From the NCBI GenBank assembly GCA_028223395.1, contig JAOIUG010000005.1:1-64000 (forward strand): DNA of 64,000 nt. Direction: 5' to 3'. This stretch comes from Shewanella sp. (lineage in GTDB: Bacteria > Pseudomonadota > Gammaproteobacteria > Enterobacterales > Shewanellaceae). Below are positions 37,212 to 44,733 of the stretch, one piece after another. The notes under the pieces were generated by a model. It saw only the letters and a list, made by a program, of their open reading frames with translations, had not been told where the DNA came from and made no database searches. Each line of letters begins with the position of its first letter. Position 1 is the first letter of the stretch. The position numbers and the translations under genes are program-made.

Positions 37212-37661
37212 TTAACTTAGGTTAAACTCGCCTTGCATAATGGCCCAATGTCCAGGAAAAGAGCAGAAAAAACGGTAGCGCTTACTGGGATCTAAACCTG
37301 CGGTATTAAATGTAATACTCGTGGAATCTCCACCGCCAACAATGTCGGTGTAGGCGATAACACGTGCGTCATCAGGCTTGATATAACTGTTAGTTGCCCC
37401 CGCCGCCATGCCTTCATTTGCAATCGCTTGCATATCACTTGCTGCACTGAGCACCCAATTATGCCCCATTGCCGACTTTGGTAGTTGACCGCTGTGGGTT
37501 AATGTCAGCGTGATCTCTTTACAACTTGATGGGGCGGATAACGCTTTTTTGTCAAATTGCATTGCATCGGTCGCTGAAATTGTCAGTTCACATTCGCTTG
37601 CAAAGGTTGAGTGACTGAACCACATCAGTATTGTGGTCATTAATGTCGTGATGACGCGCAT
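37212..37661 (-). CDS. azu: Azurin, periplasmic blue copper protein
   Basis: 149 residues with a signal peptide (about 1-21) and a mature azurin of about 128 residues. The copper ligands are His67 (MGHNWVL), Cys133, His138 and Met142 (FFCSFPGHWAIM); Cys24 and Cys47 fit the conserved disulphide. It shuttles electrons in the periplasm, for example to nitrite reductase or cytochrome c peroxidase; no such partner lies in this window. AGGA lies before the start, and a Fur-like site is about 75 bases upstream. Confidence 0.96.
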   Translation of the reverse strand: MRVITTLMTTILMWFSHSTFASECELTISATDAMQFDKKALSAPSSCKEITLTLTHSGQLPKSAMGHNWVLSAASDMQAIANEGMAAGATNSYIKPDDARVIAYTDIVGGGDSTSITFNTAGLDPSKRYRFFCSFPGHWAIMQGEFNLS

Positions 37662-38627: not shown

Positions 38628-40088
38628 ATGAAGAAAATAGCGTTTCGCCCTATAGATGCATTACTCATTAAACTCACGCTTAATGGCAAATTTATTTCGC
38701 TGTGTCTTATCTGCACATTCATCACGTTGAGTGTATCTGCACTCAATTATGTCAGTACGCTAGCGCAAACGGAGTCAAGCTCGTTTGCACGGGCGCAGGA
38801 AAAAGTGGCCGCATTCGCTGCCATTGCCGATGGTTTAATCTTGAGCGATGAGGCTTTAGATGACTTTGCTCAACGTCATGGATTGTCCGTCGGTTATGCA
38901 CAAGAACATCGTCGTGAAGGTCACTTTGTCACCGTGAGTGCGGCAGCAGGTTCTCGCTCACTGATTGCGCGCGTTGATGTTAGCAAATGGGAGCAAGCGG
39001 CGCGTTCGCAAGCCAATTGGATGGTATTACTGAGTGTCCTTGGTCTGTTTCCACTTTATTTAGTCAGTTATTGGCTGTCGACTTCTTTAGGCGGTGGATT
39101 GTGGGATATGTATGAAGCCATTAAAAGAATAGCAAAGGGCGACTTGAGCTTGAGGTTGAACTTTTTTGGACAAGATGATTTTAGTTTAATCGCTCAAGAG
39201 ATTGATCGTAGCGCGGATAACATGAGTAAAATGGTGGCTGCAATCGCCCGTAATGCTGAAACTCTGGCGCATGCGGCGAATGAGTTTAACCTTCAAGCGG
39301 AACAAAATGAGCAGTTAACTTGTGGTCAGCATCAATTTCTCGATACTGTTGCGGTCGCGATGACCCAAATGACAACGGCGATAGAAGAAGTGTCGCACAA
39401 TGCGTCAAAGACCTCAGAGCAAACAGAGATTAACTCCACACAAGCGGCGAATAGTAAATTGCAGTTAACGCAAGCGGTGAGCAGTATTGAGGCGCTAACG
39501 GGACGGATCTCAGAAGCCTCAACGTCGGTGGCTGCTCTCTCTCATGCCGCCACTGAAATTGGCGACGTCGTCACGACGATTAATGGTATTTCAGAGCAAA
39601 CCAATTTACTGGCATTGAATGCGGCGATTGAAGCTGCAAGAGCAGGAGAGCAAGGACGTGGTTTTGCGGTGGTCGCGGATGAAGTGAGAACTTTAGCGAG
39701 CCGAACCCAACAAGCAACAGTTGAAATCCAAACCATGATAGAAGGCTTGCAAAGTGGCTCTCATCAATTATCAACCATCACGAATGATATTGTGGCTCAG
39801 GCAGTAAAAGGGCGCGAAGCGATTATATCTGTGAGTGATGATGTGGATAATATGACAGTATCAATCCATACCGTGTTTGACATGAGTGTGCAAATCGCCG
39901 CCTCCTCAGAAGAGCAAAGTATGACGTCGCGCGAAATAGCCTCTCAATTGCACGATATTCGCGAGCAAGCACAAACCATTAAAAAGACCACTGAGCAGTC
40001 GGTGATATTAGCTGCCGATCTGGGCGAATCATCTAAAGGGCTCGACAGCTTGTTGGATCAATACACATTAGCCACCCCCCGCCGTTAA
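38628..40088 (+). CDS. Methyl-accepting chemotaxis protein
   Basis: 486 residues: first membrane helix about 18-42, a short periplasmic domain of about 85 residues, second helix about 127-147, a HAMP region ([19 protein letters not shown]), then a long signalling coiled coil with the hairpin tip [20 protein letters not shown]. It relays an unknown stimulus to CheA. The small periplasmic sensor domain is unusual in size. No che genes are adjacent. Confidence 0.93.
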
Positions 40089-40235: not shown

Positions 40236-40982
40236 ATGACCATGAACGTAATCGGTGCACAAGGCCTTCGTCGCACAGTGCTTCACCCTCAAATCACCGC
40301 CATATTGATGTTACTCACTGTACCGCACAGTGCTATCGCCAATAGTAAACAGCCTGTGCCTACCGATGACGGGGCGAACGTGGCAGAGTTGACCGTGAAG
40401 GTCTCGAACACCGATGCATATGCTCTAGACAATATGGTGGTTTATTTATTGGCAGAGCCTGGCAAAACACTTGCCAGTAAGGCAGGCAGTGGTGCATTAG
40501 AAATACATCAAAAAGACAAACAGTTTTCTCCTTATATCACAGTGGTACAACGAGGGGATGAATTACAATTTGTTAACGATGACGATATTACTCACCATAT
40601 TTATTCCGCATTGGGGCCTAAGCGTTTTTCGTTTAAGCTGCGTCAACATGATGAAAAAAAAGTGATTAGGTTTGATGATGTGGGCCATGTGTCAATGGGC
40701 TGTAATATTCATGATTGGATGAGTGGCCATATTTTAGTGGTCGATACGCCATTGTATGCTGCTACGAATGCGACAGGGACCGTTCGTTTTCAGGGATTGC
40801 CTTATGGTCATTATAAGGCCGTTGTGTGGCATCCTCAGTTGTTAGCGGCAAACCAGCTACAAGCGTTCGAAATTGACATTACTGCAACTAAACAGACATT
40901 CGATGCGATTGTTACGGCTGAGATGGGGCATTTACCGCAGCAGGAAAACATCGATGAATTTGAGTTTTTGGAAGACTATTAA
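40236..40982 (+). CDS. Exported type-1 copper (cupredoxin) protein
   Basis: About 248 residues with an N-terminal signal sequence (about 1-35, ending near IANS). A cupredoxin-like domain has the type-1 copper pattern: His120/121 in ITHHIYS, then Cys156, His159 and Met162 in GCNIHDWM. A C-terminal segment resembles a carboxypeptidase-regulatory-like fold (TGTVRFQGLPYGHYKAVVWHP). Homologues are often annotated as methylamine-utilisation-like proteins. Its stop overlaps the start of the GGDEF-EAL gene (TAATG), so they are translationally coupled. A TTG six codons upstream is also possible. Confidence 0.82.
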   Translation: MTMNVIGAQGLRRTVLHPQITAILMLLTVPHSAIANSKQPVPTDDGANVAELTVKVSNTDAYALDNMVVYLLAEPGKTLASKAGSGALEIHQKDKQFSPYITVVQRGDELQFVNDDDITHHIYSALGPKRFSFKLRQHDEKKVIRFDDVGHVSMGCNIHDWMSGHILVVDTPLYAATNATGTVRFQGLPYGHYKAVVWHPQLLAANQLQAFEIDITATKQTFDAIVTAEMGHLPQQENIDEFEFLEDY

Positions 40983-43348
40983 TGCTGAAGCAACGACTGA
41001 TGCAGATGAATCGACTGCAGATCCGTATTTTTTTCTTTTTTATGTTGCTACTGCTCGCGGTGCAAGCGATTTCTTTTACGATGAGTTACCAAAATAACCA
41101 GCGACTCACATTGCAACAGTTAAGTAATCGTTTGTCCATTGCAGAGTTAGTCTTTAACTCTGAGTATGAAAACCGAAATTATTACTTGTCAGCGTTTGCG
41201 GAAACAGCGGCAAAAGATTTCGCCCTTAAAGATATTTTTATAGATGGTGACAGTCGGAGTTTTTTGGTGGCGTTAAATAACCATCAAAAACGTATTAATG
41301 CTGATCTGGCCATTGCGGTGTCAGCGCAAGGGCAAGTTATTGGGCAACTTGTGAGTTTTGTCGATGATAACGGCCGTAAGAAAGTGCGTTTAGGTATTGA
41401 GCACAATACTGCGTTTCGTTATCCATTAGCCACTGAATTCCAACAGATAAGCACTTTGTATGCACTGGAAGATAAAGTGTATCAGATTAAGTTTGCACCA
41501 TTGACCAGTGGTGGCGACAGTGTGATAGCGTGGGTTGGGTTTGGCTTTGCTGTTGATGATAATTTAGCGCAGTCTTTGCAGTCTCTTACCGGGCTTAATA
41601 CCGGCTTTATTGTGACGCAGCCTGAGCATCCAAGCCGTTTTTTAGATCATCATGGTTCGCAGGAGAACAGCGCAGAAACAGCGGTGATCAAAGCGTTAGT
41701 GGAAGGTGAACACACAAACGAAGATTACCTGCTGTGGAGTAAAAAAGTGGGCGTCATGGGAGAGGCAAGCCTGTACGCTTATATGTATCAACCTCGCTCA
41801 GATTTACTACACACTTTCCAACAACAATGGTTGTGGCAATTGGCATTGATTATGTTGATGTTGCCTTTGACTATGTTGTTGGCGTTTTTGATCGCTGGCA
41901 GTGTCACCAAACCCATTAAGCAACTTATCGAACAAGCCCGGTTTATTGCCAAGGGGAATTACAATAGCAAGGTTTCGGTGGGTAACAGTGTTGAAATGTT
42001 ACAGCTTGCCGAAGAATTTACAGTGATGCAGCAAGCCATTTTAAGCCGAGAAAGCGAAATTGCGTTTCAAGCCTATCATGATCCTCTCACTCGCTTACCC
42101 AATCGAAATGAACTGGAGCGGGTTTGTGCTGCATGGTTTGCGCAACAGCAAAATGTGGCGATTTGCCTCATCAACATTCGTCGAATGGGGGAGGTGAATG
42201 TCACGTTGGGTCACGTGGTTGGTGATGAAGTGCTTAAAGAGATCGCACGTCGCTTAACGTTAATGGCGAACATTGACTTAGTGTGTCGTTTATCTGGTGA
42301 TGAATTTGTACTGGCTTTTAAAAACACCAATGCGCAGACTTTAACACCATTATTAACAGAGCTGCATCGTAATATAGAGCAGCCTTATCAATACCAAGAG
42401 ATTAATTTACACTTACAAATCACCATCGGCTGTGCGTTTTATCGGCCACCTTGTGATCTTGTCACGTTATTACGTCAAACTGATATAGCCTTGCACTATG
42501 CGAAGAGCCATCAATTATCGCAACAAACCTACGACGCAAGCATTGATGTTAACACCCTTGAAAGGCTGCAATTAGTGAATGATTTAAAGTCAGCCATTGA
42601 AACACACGAGTTAGTGCTCTTTTATCAGCCAAAATTGGACTTAAAACTTAATCAAGTCACTCATGTTGAGGCGCTGGTGCGTTGGATGCACCCGATGAGA
42701 GGCATGATCTCTCCGGATACATTTATTCCGATTGCTGAAAAAACAGGCCAAATGAATGCGCTAACACGCTGGGTGATCATTGAGGCGATCTCACAATATC
42801 ATCGTTGGCGTCAAGAAGGGATCACACTGTCGATAGCGGTCAATATTTCTGCTGAAAACTTAAAAGATGAATTTTTCTGCCAGTGGGTGCTCGATATCAT
42901 CAAACAACACAATATGCCGATCAGCGCATTAACCCTTGAGATCACCGAAGATGCAGTTGTCGCCGATCCGGCGACAGCCATTCGTCAGTTGAGTGTGTTG
43001 CGCCAATATGGCTTGGCATTATCAATTGATGATTATGGCACAGGCTACTCTTCATTGACGCAGCTCAAACGCTTACCGGTCGATGAGCTTAAAATTGATC
43101 GCACATTTGTCCAGCAGCTAATGAACAGTGGTGATGATCGCATTATAGTGAGCTCAACATTACAACTTGCCCATAGTTTAGGTTTGTCTGTCGTGGCTGA
43201 AGGCGTGGAAGATCAAGCCACATTAAATTGGCTCACAGAGCGAGGCTGTGAAATGGCGCAAGGGTTTTACCTTTCAAAACCGATGGAAGCGAGCCTAATG
43301 GGGGCATGGCTTGCACAATATAACAATATTAGTCGTGATGAGCGGTGA
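40982..43348 (+). CDS. Membrane HAMP-GGDEF-EAL cyclic-di-GMP protein
   Basis: 788 residues: membrane helix about 14-33, a periplasmic sensor of about 245 residues, second helix about 284-305, HAMP about 305-355, GGDEF about 360-515 and EAL about 525-780. The EAL motif is intact (E563-A-L565 and DDYGTGYSS), so phosphodiesterase activity is likely. The GGDEF reads SGDEF (438-442) and lacks the usual Asp of the DxDxFK block (N398, R400), so cyclase activity is probably lost. Coupled to the cupredoxin gene; possibly regulated by it. Confidence 0.9.
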   Translation: MLKQRLMQMNRLQIRIFFFFMLLLLAVQAISFTMSYQNNQRLTLQQLSNRLSIAELVFNSEYENRNYYLSAFAETAAKDFALKDIFIDGDSRSFLVALNNHQKRINADLAIAVSAQGQVIGQLVSFVDDNGRKKVRLGIEHNTAFRYPLATEFQQISTLYALEDKVYQIKFAPLTSGGDSVIAWVGFGFAVDDNLAQSLQSLTGLNTGFIVTQPEHPSRFLDHHGSQENSAETAVIKALVEGEHTNEDYLLWSKKVGVMGEASLYAYMYQPRSDLLHTFQQQWLWQLALIMLMLPLTMLLAFLIAGSVTKPIKQLIEQARFIAKGNYNSKVSVGNSVEMLQLAEEFTVMQQAILSRESEIAFQAYHDPLTRLPNRNELERVCAAWFAQQQNVAICLINIRRMGEVNVTLGHVVGDEVLKEIARRLTLMANIDLVCRLSGDEFVLAFKNTNAQTLTPLLTELHRNIEQPYQYQEINLHLQITIGCAFYRPPCDLVTLLRQTDIALHYAKSHQLSQQTYDASIDVNTLERLQLVNDLKSAIETHELVLFYQPKLDLKLNQVTHVEALVRWMHPMRGMISPDTFIPIAEKTGQMNALTRWVIIEAISQYHRWRQEGITLSIAVNISAENLKDEFFCQWVLDIIKQHNMPISALTLEITEDAVVADPATAIRQLSVLRQYGLALSIDDYGTGYSSLTQLKRLPVDELKIDRTFVQQLMNSGDDRIIVSSTLQLAHSLGLSVVAEGVEDQATLNWLTERGCEMAQGFYLSKPMEASLMGAWLAQYNNISRDER

Positions 43349-43391
43349 TCGTGGGCATGACGTTTAGGTTAGTGTGGATTGGAGAAATGAG

Positions 43392-44639
43392 ATGACCAAA
43401 CTGGTTTACGTATTGGCGCAGGTGATGCTATTAAATATTTTGGGCGTGGTTAACTGTATTGCTGTGGAGCAAAAGCTGTCTGGTTTAATCGATGTGAGAG
43501 CCACTTATAATAATAGCGAAATGTCATTTGTCAGCGGCGGATTGGGCAAATTTCGGTTCGATCCACAATCACACTTATCACTGGCCCAAGCGGGGTTGAG
43601 CTATCGCGCAAACTGGGATAACGGTATTGCGGCCCATGTAGTGAGTAATGCATATTGGGATGGAGTTAAAAATAACTTAGGGATCACAGAGGCATGGTTA
43701 GGCTACAAAGGGTTACCGTCGGCAAATGGTTTCAGGCTCAGCGCTAAAGCCGGCATCTTTTATCCACATATTTCGCTAGAAAATGTCGCCACGACATGGT
43801 CTTCACCGTATACGCTTAGCTACTCGACGATAAACAGCTGGTTGGCAGAAGAAGTGCGCCATATTGGATTGAATGTGGGTCTGCAGCATCTGGGTAAATT
43901 TTCTCAGTCAGCACATGATATCGGCTTTAATATTGAAACGTTTATCAATAATGACACGACCGGTGCAATGCTTGCGTGGCACGGCTGGACATTAAGCTCT
44001 AGACAAACCTTATGGCAAGAAAGGTTGGCATTAAGTGCGATACCAGCGCTTTATGGCGGCATGTTAGCTGCTCAGGCTAAAGAATCTGATCCCTTTTTAG
44101 AGCTCGATAATCGTTTAGGTTATCATGTCAGTGGCAATTGGAAATGGCATGGAAAAGGCAAATTCAATGCTGGCTATTATAATAACAATGCAAACCCTAA
44201 AGTCGTCAAACAAGGCCAATATGCTTGGTTAACACGCTTTGGCTATATTGGGGGTAAATGGAAGCTGCCTTATAATATCGATTTGATAGGCCAGTTTATG
44301 CTTGGCGATACCTTGATGCAAAGCCCAACGGGGATCAATGTGGTCGACAATGACTATCACAGCGCTTTTTTATTGTTGAGTCGACGTTGGGAAAAACATC
44401 GCTTAACACTCAGAGTGGAAGACTACGGCGTGGTTGATCAAGACAATACCATTGACGATGACAACACTGAAGCTGGCCAAGCTTATACATTGTCTTACGC
44501 TTATCAACTCCAAAAAGGCTGGTTTTTACAAGCAGAATACAACCTTATGGACTCTCAACGTCACGCGCGGATCGCACAAGGACAAAACAGCCATGCGCTG
44601 GAGCAACAATGGCAATTGGCGAGTCGCTATTATTTTTAA
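43392..44639 (+). CDS. Predicted outer-membrane beta-barrel protein of the copper/c-di-GMP operon
   Basis: About 415 residues with a signal peptide (cleavage near CIAVEQ). The rest alternates polar and hydrophobic residues with many aromatic girdle residues and ends in RYYF, as outer-membrane barrels do. I do not recognise a named porin family. GGAGA lies just before this ATG; a GTG 18 bases upstream is in frame but would place the RBS inside the gene. It follows the GGDEF-EAL gene by 43 bases and is probably in the same operon. Confidence 0.75.
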   Translation: MTKLVYVLAQVMLLNILGVVNCIAVEQKLSGLIDVRATYNNSEMSFVSGGLGKFRFDPQSHLSLAQAGLSYRANWDNGIAAHVVSNAYWDGVKNNLGITEAWLGYKGLPSANGFRLSAKAGIFYPHISLENVATTWSSPYTLSYSTINSWLAEEVRHIGLNVGLQHLGKFSQSAHDIGFNIETFINNDTTGAMLAWHGWTLSSRQTLWQERLALSAIPALYGGMLAAQAKESDPFLELDNRLGYHVSGNWKWHGKGKFNAGYYNNNANPKVVKQGQYAWLTRFGYIGGKWKLPYNIDLIGQFMLGDTLMQSPTGINVVDNDYHSAFLLLSRRWEKHRLTLRVEDYGVVDQDNTIDDDNTEAGQAYTLSYAYQLQKGWFLQAEYNLMDSQRHARIAQGQNSHALEQQWQLASRYYF

Positions 44640-44707: not shown

Positions 44708-44733
44708 AAAAATGCCAGCAATAACGCTGGCAT
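44708..44733 (-). terminator. Terminator of the yciB-yciI-xthA operon
   Basis: ATGCCAGC and GCTGGCAT arms with a 6-base loop. On the minus strand it is followed by TTTTTA, and it lies 27 bases past the xthA stop. Confidence 0.85.

Follow-up and report, generated by a model that had tools for sequence, protein, structure and literature searches.

A gene unit of a type-1 cupredoxin, a predicted c-di-GMP phosphodiesterase and a porin-like barrel in Shewanella as a candidate envelope signalling system

The reading of redox outside the cytoplasm and its conversion into c-di-GMP or other signals are poorly known, and the described cases that can be compared rest on disulphides. Periplasmic proteins are paired with HAMP-GGDEF-EAL proteins in LapD/LapG and NspS-MbaA, an arrangement shared by the locus studied here; these pairs differ from the cupredoxin unit in that LapD is a degenerate receptor, LapG a protease and NspS a solute-binding protein. 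HmsD of the HmsCDE system is a cyclase. In Yersinia pestis the periplasmic partner of this system reads redox via disulphide bonds of HmsC (PMC5550408). In Salmonella, DsbA/DsbB and STM3615 represent a case in which the periplasmic redox state influences biofilm by way of a GGDEF-EAL protein (PMC4143323). For YfiBNR, it is described that YfiB at the outer membrane sequesters periplasmic YfiR from YfiN and that YfiR may read redox (PMC3375315).

The locus was found in a window of 64,000 nucleotides, the whole stretch of DNA analysed, from a 53 % complete assembly of a Shewanella sp. whose nearest named relative in the contig scan was Shewanella kaireitica DSM 17170. Three genes follow each other head to tail, all on the + strand. 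The first, cup (40242..40982, +), codes for a predicted secreted type-1 cupredoxin with an amicyanin-like loop, a C-terminal beta-sandwich domain and the acidic tail IDEFEFLEDY; candidate starts are TTG 40218, ATG 40236 and ATG 40242, with the ORF ending at 40982. The second (40982..43348, +) codes for a sensor-HAMP-GGDEF-EAL protein, by its Pfam domains and EAL residues a predicted c-di-GMP phosphodiesterase with a degenerate GGDEF domain; its membrane helices and putative dCache_3-like periplasmic sensor region (41018..41890, +) were assigned from the dCache_3 matches of relatives and the sequence search. The third, omp1 (43392..44639, +), was assigned by AlphaFold2, Foldseek and its linkage to cup as a 16-strand porin-like outer-membrane barrel with a terminal aromatic residue; it starts with ATG 43392 (GTG 43374 is possible), 43 nt past the receptor gene. 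The translational coupling of the first two genes by TAATG, reported in a first-pass annotation, was read in the sequence: at 40980-40984 the stop codon TAA of cup (40980-40982) overlaps by one base with the ATG of the receptor gene at 40982. The fixed stoichiometry suggested there on the basis of the coupling does not follow, for translational coupling alone does not demonstrate it. A terminator-like hairpin (44712..44733, -) lies between the operon and a convergent exonuclease-family gene; the operon region held two terminator-like sites against a shuffle mean of 4.9, hence no excess over chance. Upstream, the gene of a methyl-accepting chemotaxis protein (38628..40088, +) was rejected as an obligate part, being a neighbour in only 8 of 14 same-genus loci (L031-L044). 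A true azurin gene is located about 2.6 kb upstream at 37212-37661 (-; NCBIfam azurin E 1.9e-56). It was rejected as a member of the unit: a match was present in one of 40 neighbourhoods, that of the nearest relative L031 alone (75 % match). Apart from this azurin on the other strand, the Pfam scans of the operon and of seven genes in the flanks revealed no further redox gene.

The unit resembles YfiBNR (TpbB) of Pseudomonas aeruginosa in the combination of an outer-membrane part, a soluble periplasmic regulator and an inner-membrane c-di-GMP enzyme with HAMP domain (PMC3375315). It differs in that the enzyme YfiN is a cyclase of PAS-HAMP-GGDEF architecture, the outer-membrane part YfiB a Pal-like lipoprotein instead of a porin-like barrel, and YfiR is not described as a copper protein (PMC3375315). 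Only the HAMP and GGDEF modules are common to both. Membership in YfiBNR was rejected, as no YfiR or OmpA/Pal family was among the Pfam matches of cup and the barrel; the mode of action may be alike. With HmsCDE the unit would share a tripartite c-di-GMP control and a redox-dependent periplasmic partner, whereas HmsC acts by disulphides (PMC5550408) and the candidate here carries a predicted copper site. The DsbA/DsbB/STM3615 case likewise concerns disulphide status, and its abstract mentions no dedicated copper protein or barrel (PMC4143323). At most, the unit may work like YfiBNR or HmsCDE, of which it is not a member; the regulatory parts differ. Among the papers listed by a search of open-licence full-text literature, none was seen to describe a cup-receptor-barrel unit, judging by titles, the beginnings of abstracts and selected passages; subscription journals are mostly outside this body of text, and absence in print is unproven.

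The cupredoxin described in the first-pass annotation as secreted and carrying C-x2-H-x2-M ligands was recognized as such: a signal peptide is visible in the sequence, and the copper-ligand set H..C-x2-H-x2-M consists of H118, C154, H157 and M160 (numbered from ATG 40242). Pfam Cupredoxin_1 matched with E 2.1e-4 and 21.7 bits, below its cut-off of 27. By sequence the best match among solved chains was amicyanin (E 0.0024); a profile search with the cup family gave one solved chain, a copper nitrite reductase (E 8.7e-5). The structure model, like that of omp1 a single chain, had a pLDDT of 85 and NirK, pseudoazurin and amicyanin as best folds; Foldseek matches to NirK (E 2.6e-7) and amicyanin (E 5.1e-7) over about 110 columns place it in the cupredoxin fold. 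By fold and ligand set cup is a type-1 cupredoxin, and copper binding is predicted. Fold and type-1 ligands are as in amicyanin, pseudoazurin and plastocyanin, from which cup differs by an identity of 15-26 % among the fold matches listed, by an extra C-terminal domain with tail and by the company of a receptor gene. The short loop with C-x2-H-x2-M spacing is also present in amicyanin. The four ligands were invariant across 48 aligned rows, which is partly by construction: the search that yielded L071-L150 used two patterns, including the motif GCNIHD, so that invariance there is partly built in. The first-pass annotation had staked its reading on ligand conservation, and in the set chosen without a ligand motif all ligands were kept in 38 of 38 aligned rows (by eye). 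The second, beta-rich C-terminal domain contains a WHP that is invariant in 21 rows and conserved to at least 90 % in 48 rows. This domain with its WHP and the tails matched to the barrels would suit a protein that uses the cupredoxin fold only for ligand binding or as an adaptor, copper being structural or absent, like other adaptors of the periplasm. Broken ligand sets occur in two remote relatives, L176 without the His and L180 without the Met, and in both an EAL protein still adjoins; they speak for this role and against a copper-based co-receptor. Such a role is improbable, as all four ligands are kept in the main set. Proteins like cup are presumably annotated only as 'methylamine utilization protein'; if the signalling model developed below is true, proteins now bearing only this name would obtain a function.

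In the receptor protein of 788 aa, Pfam identified EAL (3.6e-75), GGDEF (1.6e-28) and HAMP (2.1e-7) domains; the HAMP domain is preceded by about 250 N-terminal residues flanked by two hydrophobic stretches, in agreement with the HAMP-GGDEF-EAL protein with large periplasmic sensor noted before. At E 0.01, the dCache_3 family (PF14827) was matched by 29 of the 32 sensors in the alignment. The sensor of the window itself had no match to it and finds relatives of the dCache_3-bearing kind with E about 1e-11 to 1e-16. When solved structures were searched with a profile of the sensor, the single match was at chance level. Nine positions which we take to be the catalytic and metal-binding ones of EAL domains were intact in 103 of 103 proteins, including that of the window. 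The GGDEF site of the window reads SGDEF, departing from GG[DE]EF, and lacks an RxxD I-site; some cyclase activity may remain. Among the 103 proteins the first G was present in 35 and the second G in 65. Because the nine EAL residues are intact while the GGDEF domain is mostly degenerate, the receptor protein is predicted to be a c-di-GMP phosphodiesterase. A pure c-di-GMP receptor with a degenerate EAL domain of the LapD type was rejected on account of the intact EAL residues, and the match to the NCBIfam LapD model, at 152 bits, was below the cut-off of 1020. For the same reason an active phosphodiesterase is more probable than the 'c-di-GMP receptor' named in the earlier title.

For omp1, the barrel predicted at first sight was reproduced by an AlphaFold2 model (pLDDT 93.9, pTM 0.89) with 16 strands, counted from the DSSP list. 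Foldseek gave porins as best folds (best E 2e-13); in the 50 fold matches listed, identity was 9-14 %. A Pfam scan yielded no family above cut-off, and omp1 is thus not in the known porin sequence families.

Linkage of the three genes was studied in 99 genomes, the window's own among them. There were 47 matches to cup, spread over 38 genomes, and 41 to the sensor region, from 36 genomes; the barrel had 23 matches, one in each of 23 genomes. All 23 barrel matches were near cup (within 4.5 kb), as were 39 of the 41 sensor matches (within 1.5 kb). The full unit of cup, receptor and barrel on one strand was present at 21 loci, window included; the conservation of gene order that had been named beforehand as a test was observed. 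Six weak cup matches, of which one is at the end of a contig, lacked both partners in their vicinity. The genomes G088 and G075 had barrels with cup present and the sensor protein absent. The sensor protein may work alone, because two of them (G094:C12 and G075:C293) have no cup nearby. The association of the three genes exceeds chance. A coincidental neighbourhood, or a lineage-specific operon without common function, would fit the presence of the full unit in only 21 of 99 genomes; it is highly improbable in view of the strict linkage among the carriers, is already contradicted by the linkage counts, and has against it a changed gene order in one locus and the occurrence of the pair in further phyla, both presented next.

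A scan of contigs found 589 encoding stretches, of which the best 80 were kept. These best 80 of 589 belonged to gamma-, beta- and alphaproteobacteria, Verrucomicrobia and Riflebacteria, with single records of Nitrospiria and Nitrospinaceae; within them the unit reaches beyond Alteromonadales. Together with 40 loci from relatives they formed a sample of 120 best matches, partly redundant (L031 and L071 come from a single contig, as L046 and L093 seem to do). A cup ORF was obtained in 117; L055, L108 and L113, in which the simple ORF finder called no cupredoxin ORF, were left out. In 112 of these 117 best-match loci cup was accompanied by a sensor protein on the same strand, at most two genes upstream or three downstream. 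The outputs behind the sensor were GGDEF-EAL in 102 loci and a class III cyclase in 8; in two, cut by the contig end, none was recognised, and five had no sensor protein. For the cyclase output, Pfam was run on L053 and L119. Of 50 loci with EAL and omp1, 49 had the order cup, receptor, barrel, and L143 had cup, barrel, receptor. In L135 and L140 sensor-GGDEF-EAL genes flank cup on both sides, a doubled receptor.

When 143 genera of the class were sampled evenly, only 23 genomes had a cup match at E 1e-10 or better; 26 of 27 new places were retrieved. All seven places with E below 1e-35 (window and G064 excluded) had a gene for a sensor protein nearby, in L166 in broken frames; the outputs were EAL, class III cyclase, histidine kinase (L165) and Ser/Thr protein kinase (L167, with a remote cupredoxin). 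Among the 19 weaker places, L176 had a sensor-PAS-GGDEF-EAL and L180 a HAMP-GGDEF-EAL protein, and the other 17 were without a receptor of this kind, several having MauG-like, cytochrome, kinase- or chemoreceptor-like neighbours; neighbours were labelled with profiles built here and limited Pfam scans, and unlabelled ones may conceal more parts. In L166 (1205-5717) the genes for cup, receptor, DUF3034 and globin lie in several broken frames, the locus being decayed or misassembled.

The first-pass annotation had proposed that a periplasmic copper or redox protein feeds a signal to a c-di-GMP phosphodiesterase, an outer-membrane component being part of the arrangement. This is the best-supported reading, because cup and the dCache_3-type sensor remain together where another cytoplasmic output takes the place of the usual one. 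With moderate confidence we propose a three-layer envelope signalling unit of porin-like barrel, cupredoxin co-receptor and dCache_3-type sensor/phosphodiesterase. Cup would be a soluble periplasmic co-receptor whose copper site responds to redox or copper. It would touch the periplasmic dCache_3-type domain of the inner-membrane HAMP-GGDEF-EAL protein and thereby alter the phosphodiesterase activity; the degenerate GGDEF domain would be at most regulatory. The outer-membrane barrel may hold cup by its C-terminal tail, or admit the signal (a copper ion, an oxidant, an NO-type or another small molecule), or both. A change of redox or copper at the surface would then change c-di-GMP and, with it, motility or biofilm. 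In this three-layer model, the protein contact, the copper loading, the sensed signal and the sign of the effect are what we infer. With its named residues and with carriers that can be cultured, the conserved operon, in which a type-1 copper protein is set between the porin-like barrel and the dCache receptor, is a candidate open to experiment.

Cup is also associated with the barrel itself: L050, L052 and L150 keep cup and omp1 without the sensor protein. Two GGDEF-EAL genes without a sensor profile are located directly upstream of this pair in L150 (2-5765). For this locus with its other GGDEF-EAL genes, the three-layer reading becomes slightly weaker, and slightly stronger becomes the alternative that cup is the electron carrier of a small periplasmic or outer-membrane redox chain, the c-di-GMP protein having its own ligand and being merely co-regulated. 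The three loci, together with the MauG-like, cytochrome and globin neighbours of related genes, speak for such a carrier; it is nevertheless quite unlikely, considering that cup and sensor remain neighbours across four or more types of output and that, azurin apart, neither the window operon nor the seven scanned flanking genes offer another redox gene.

Three types of outer-membrane partner occurred across the loci: omp1, DUF3034 or a smaller barrel, omp3. DUF3034, a name for unknown function only, was accompanied by a truncated-globin gene in 31 of 34 loci; such a sister operon, with the genes for cup, dCache_3-GGDEF-EAL protein, DUF3034 and truncated globin, is located at L056:4935-9336, and similar loci are present in Shewanella and Pseudomonas. 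Tails were counted as acidic with at least three acidic residues and more acidic than basic residues in the last 15, after the removal of identical C-terminal stretches (124 to 122 rows). Acidic cup tails were found with omp1 in 54 of 55 rows, with omp3 in 0/8, with DUF3034 in 4/36 and without recognised barrel in 6/23 (L081 and L101 of these at contig ends). At omp3 loci cup ended in a Gly-rich stretch and a Tyr in five of eight cases. Where output and barrel are uncoupled, L163 (EAL, omp3) had a tail of the omp3 type and L119 (cyclase, omp1) an acidic one. Two members of the omp1 clade have no recognised barrel: the tail of L104 is no longer acidic, that of L080 still is. The exception to the rule is L065, first classed as barrel-less and relabelled omp1. 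A tree-corrected test of the association was not significant, with two independent pairs on well-supported branches and six on all branches; L101 and L111, their sensor proteins cut by the contig end, were left out of the tree. The match of tail and barrel is a lead, not proof, for a docking of the tail on the barrel. Partial correlations of distance matrices, given EAL, ranged from 0.44 to 0.59 for cup, sensor and barrel (cup-sensor 0.46), values that do not separate contact from shared history.

Remote cupredoxins occurred in the company of haem proteins. L153 (1560-5499) and L154 had the order MauG-like peroxidase, cupredoxin, cytochrome P460, GGDEF protein; the order MauG-like, cupredoxin, cytochrome c, histidine kinase was present in L155 (2876-6440), L159 and L160. 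Pfam was applied to L153 and L155, and L154, L159 and L160 were assigned to them by BLAST. A theme recurs, in which a membrane signalling protein has a small cupredoxin as neighbour, in many cases together with haem proteins. Because this company recurs, a redox reading is favoured over a pure copper-ion reading, without being settled. In the latter the porin would admit copper, cup would be a chaperone, and the dCache-EAL protein would read metal loading, not redox; the conserved ligands and the porin-like barrel in the same operon argue for copper-ion sensing or delivery. It is unlikely, since the relatives keep company with haem proteins instead and no copper gene was seen among the neighbours scanned, unsystematically, with Pfam. 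Type-1 copper sites are, moreover, usually electron carriers, which also stands against a copper-ion role. The three-layer unit could be one case of a general receptor class, in which a tail-docked blue-copper protein on a matched barrel relays redox to dCache_3 with interchangeable outputs (phosphodiesterase, class III cyclase, histidine kinase, Ser/Thr kinase), related cupredoxins serving MauG- or cytochrome-linked chemoreceptors, kinases and diguanylate cyclases; this generalization is tentative and somewhat doubtful. Remote cupredoxin-like proteins in L170 and L171 directly follow large HEAT-repeat proteins, no such receptor being labelled nearby. In L179 a chemoreceptor (MCPsignal) is ahead of the cupredoxin, cytochrome and MauG-like genes, and the window's own genome carries on another contig (G000:C24, L157:3627-7622), in this order, a MauG-like gene, a cupredoxin and a chemoreceptor (MCPsignal).
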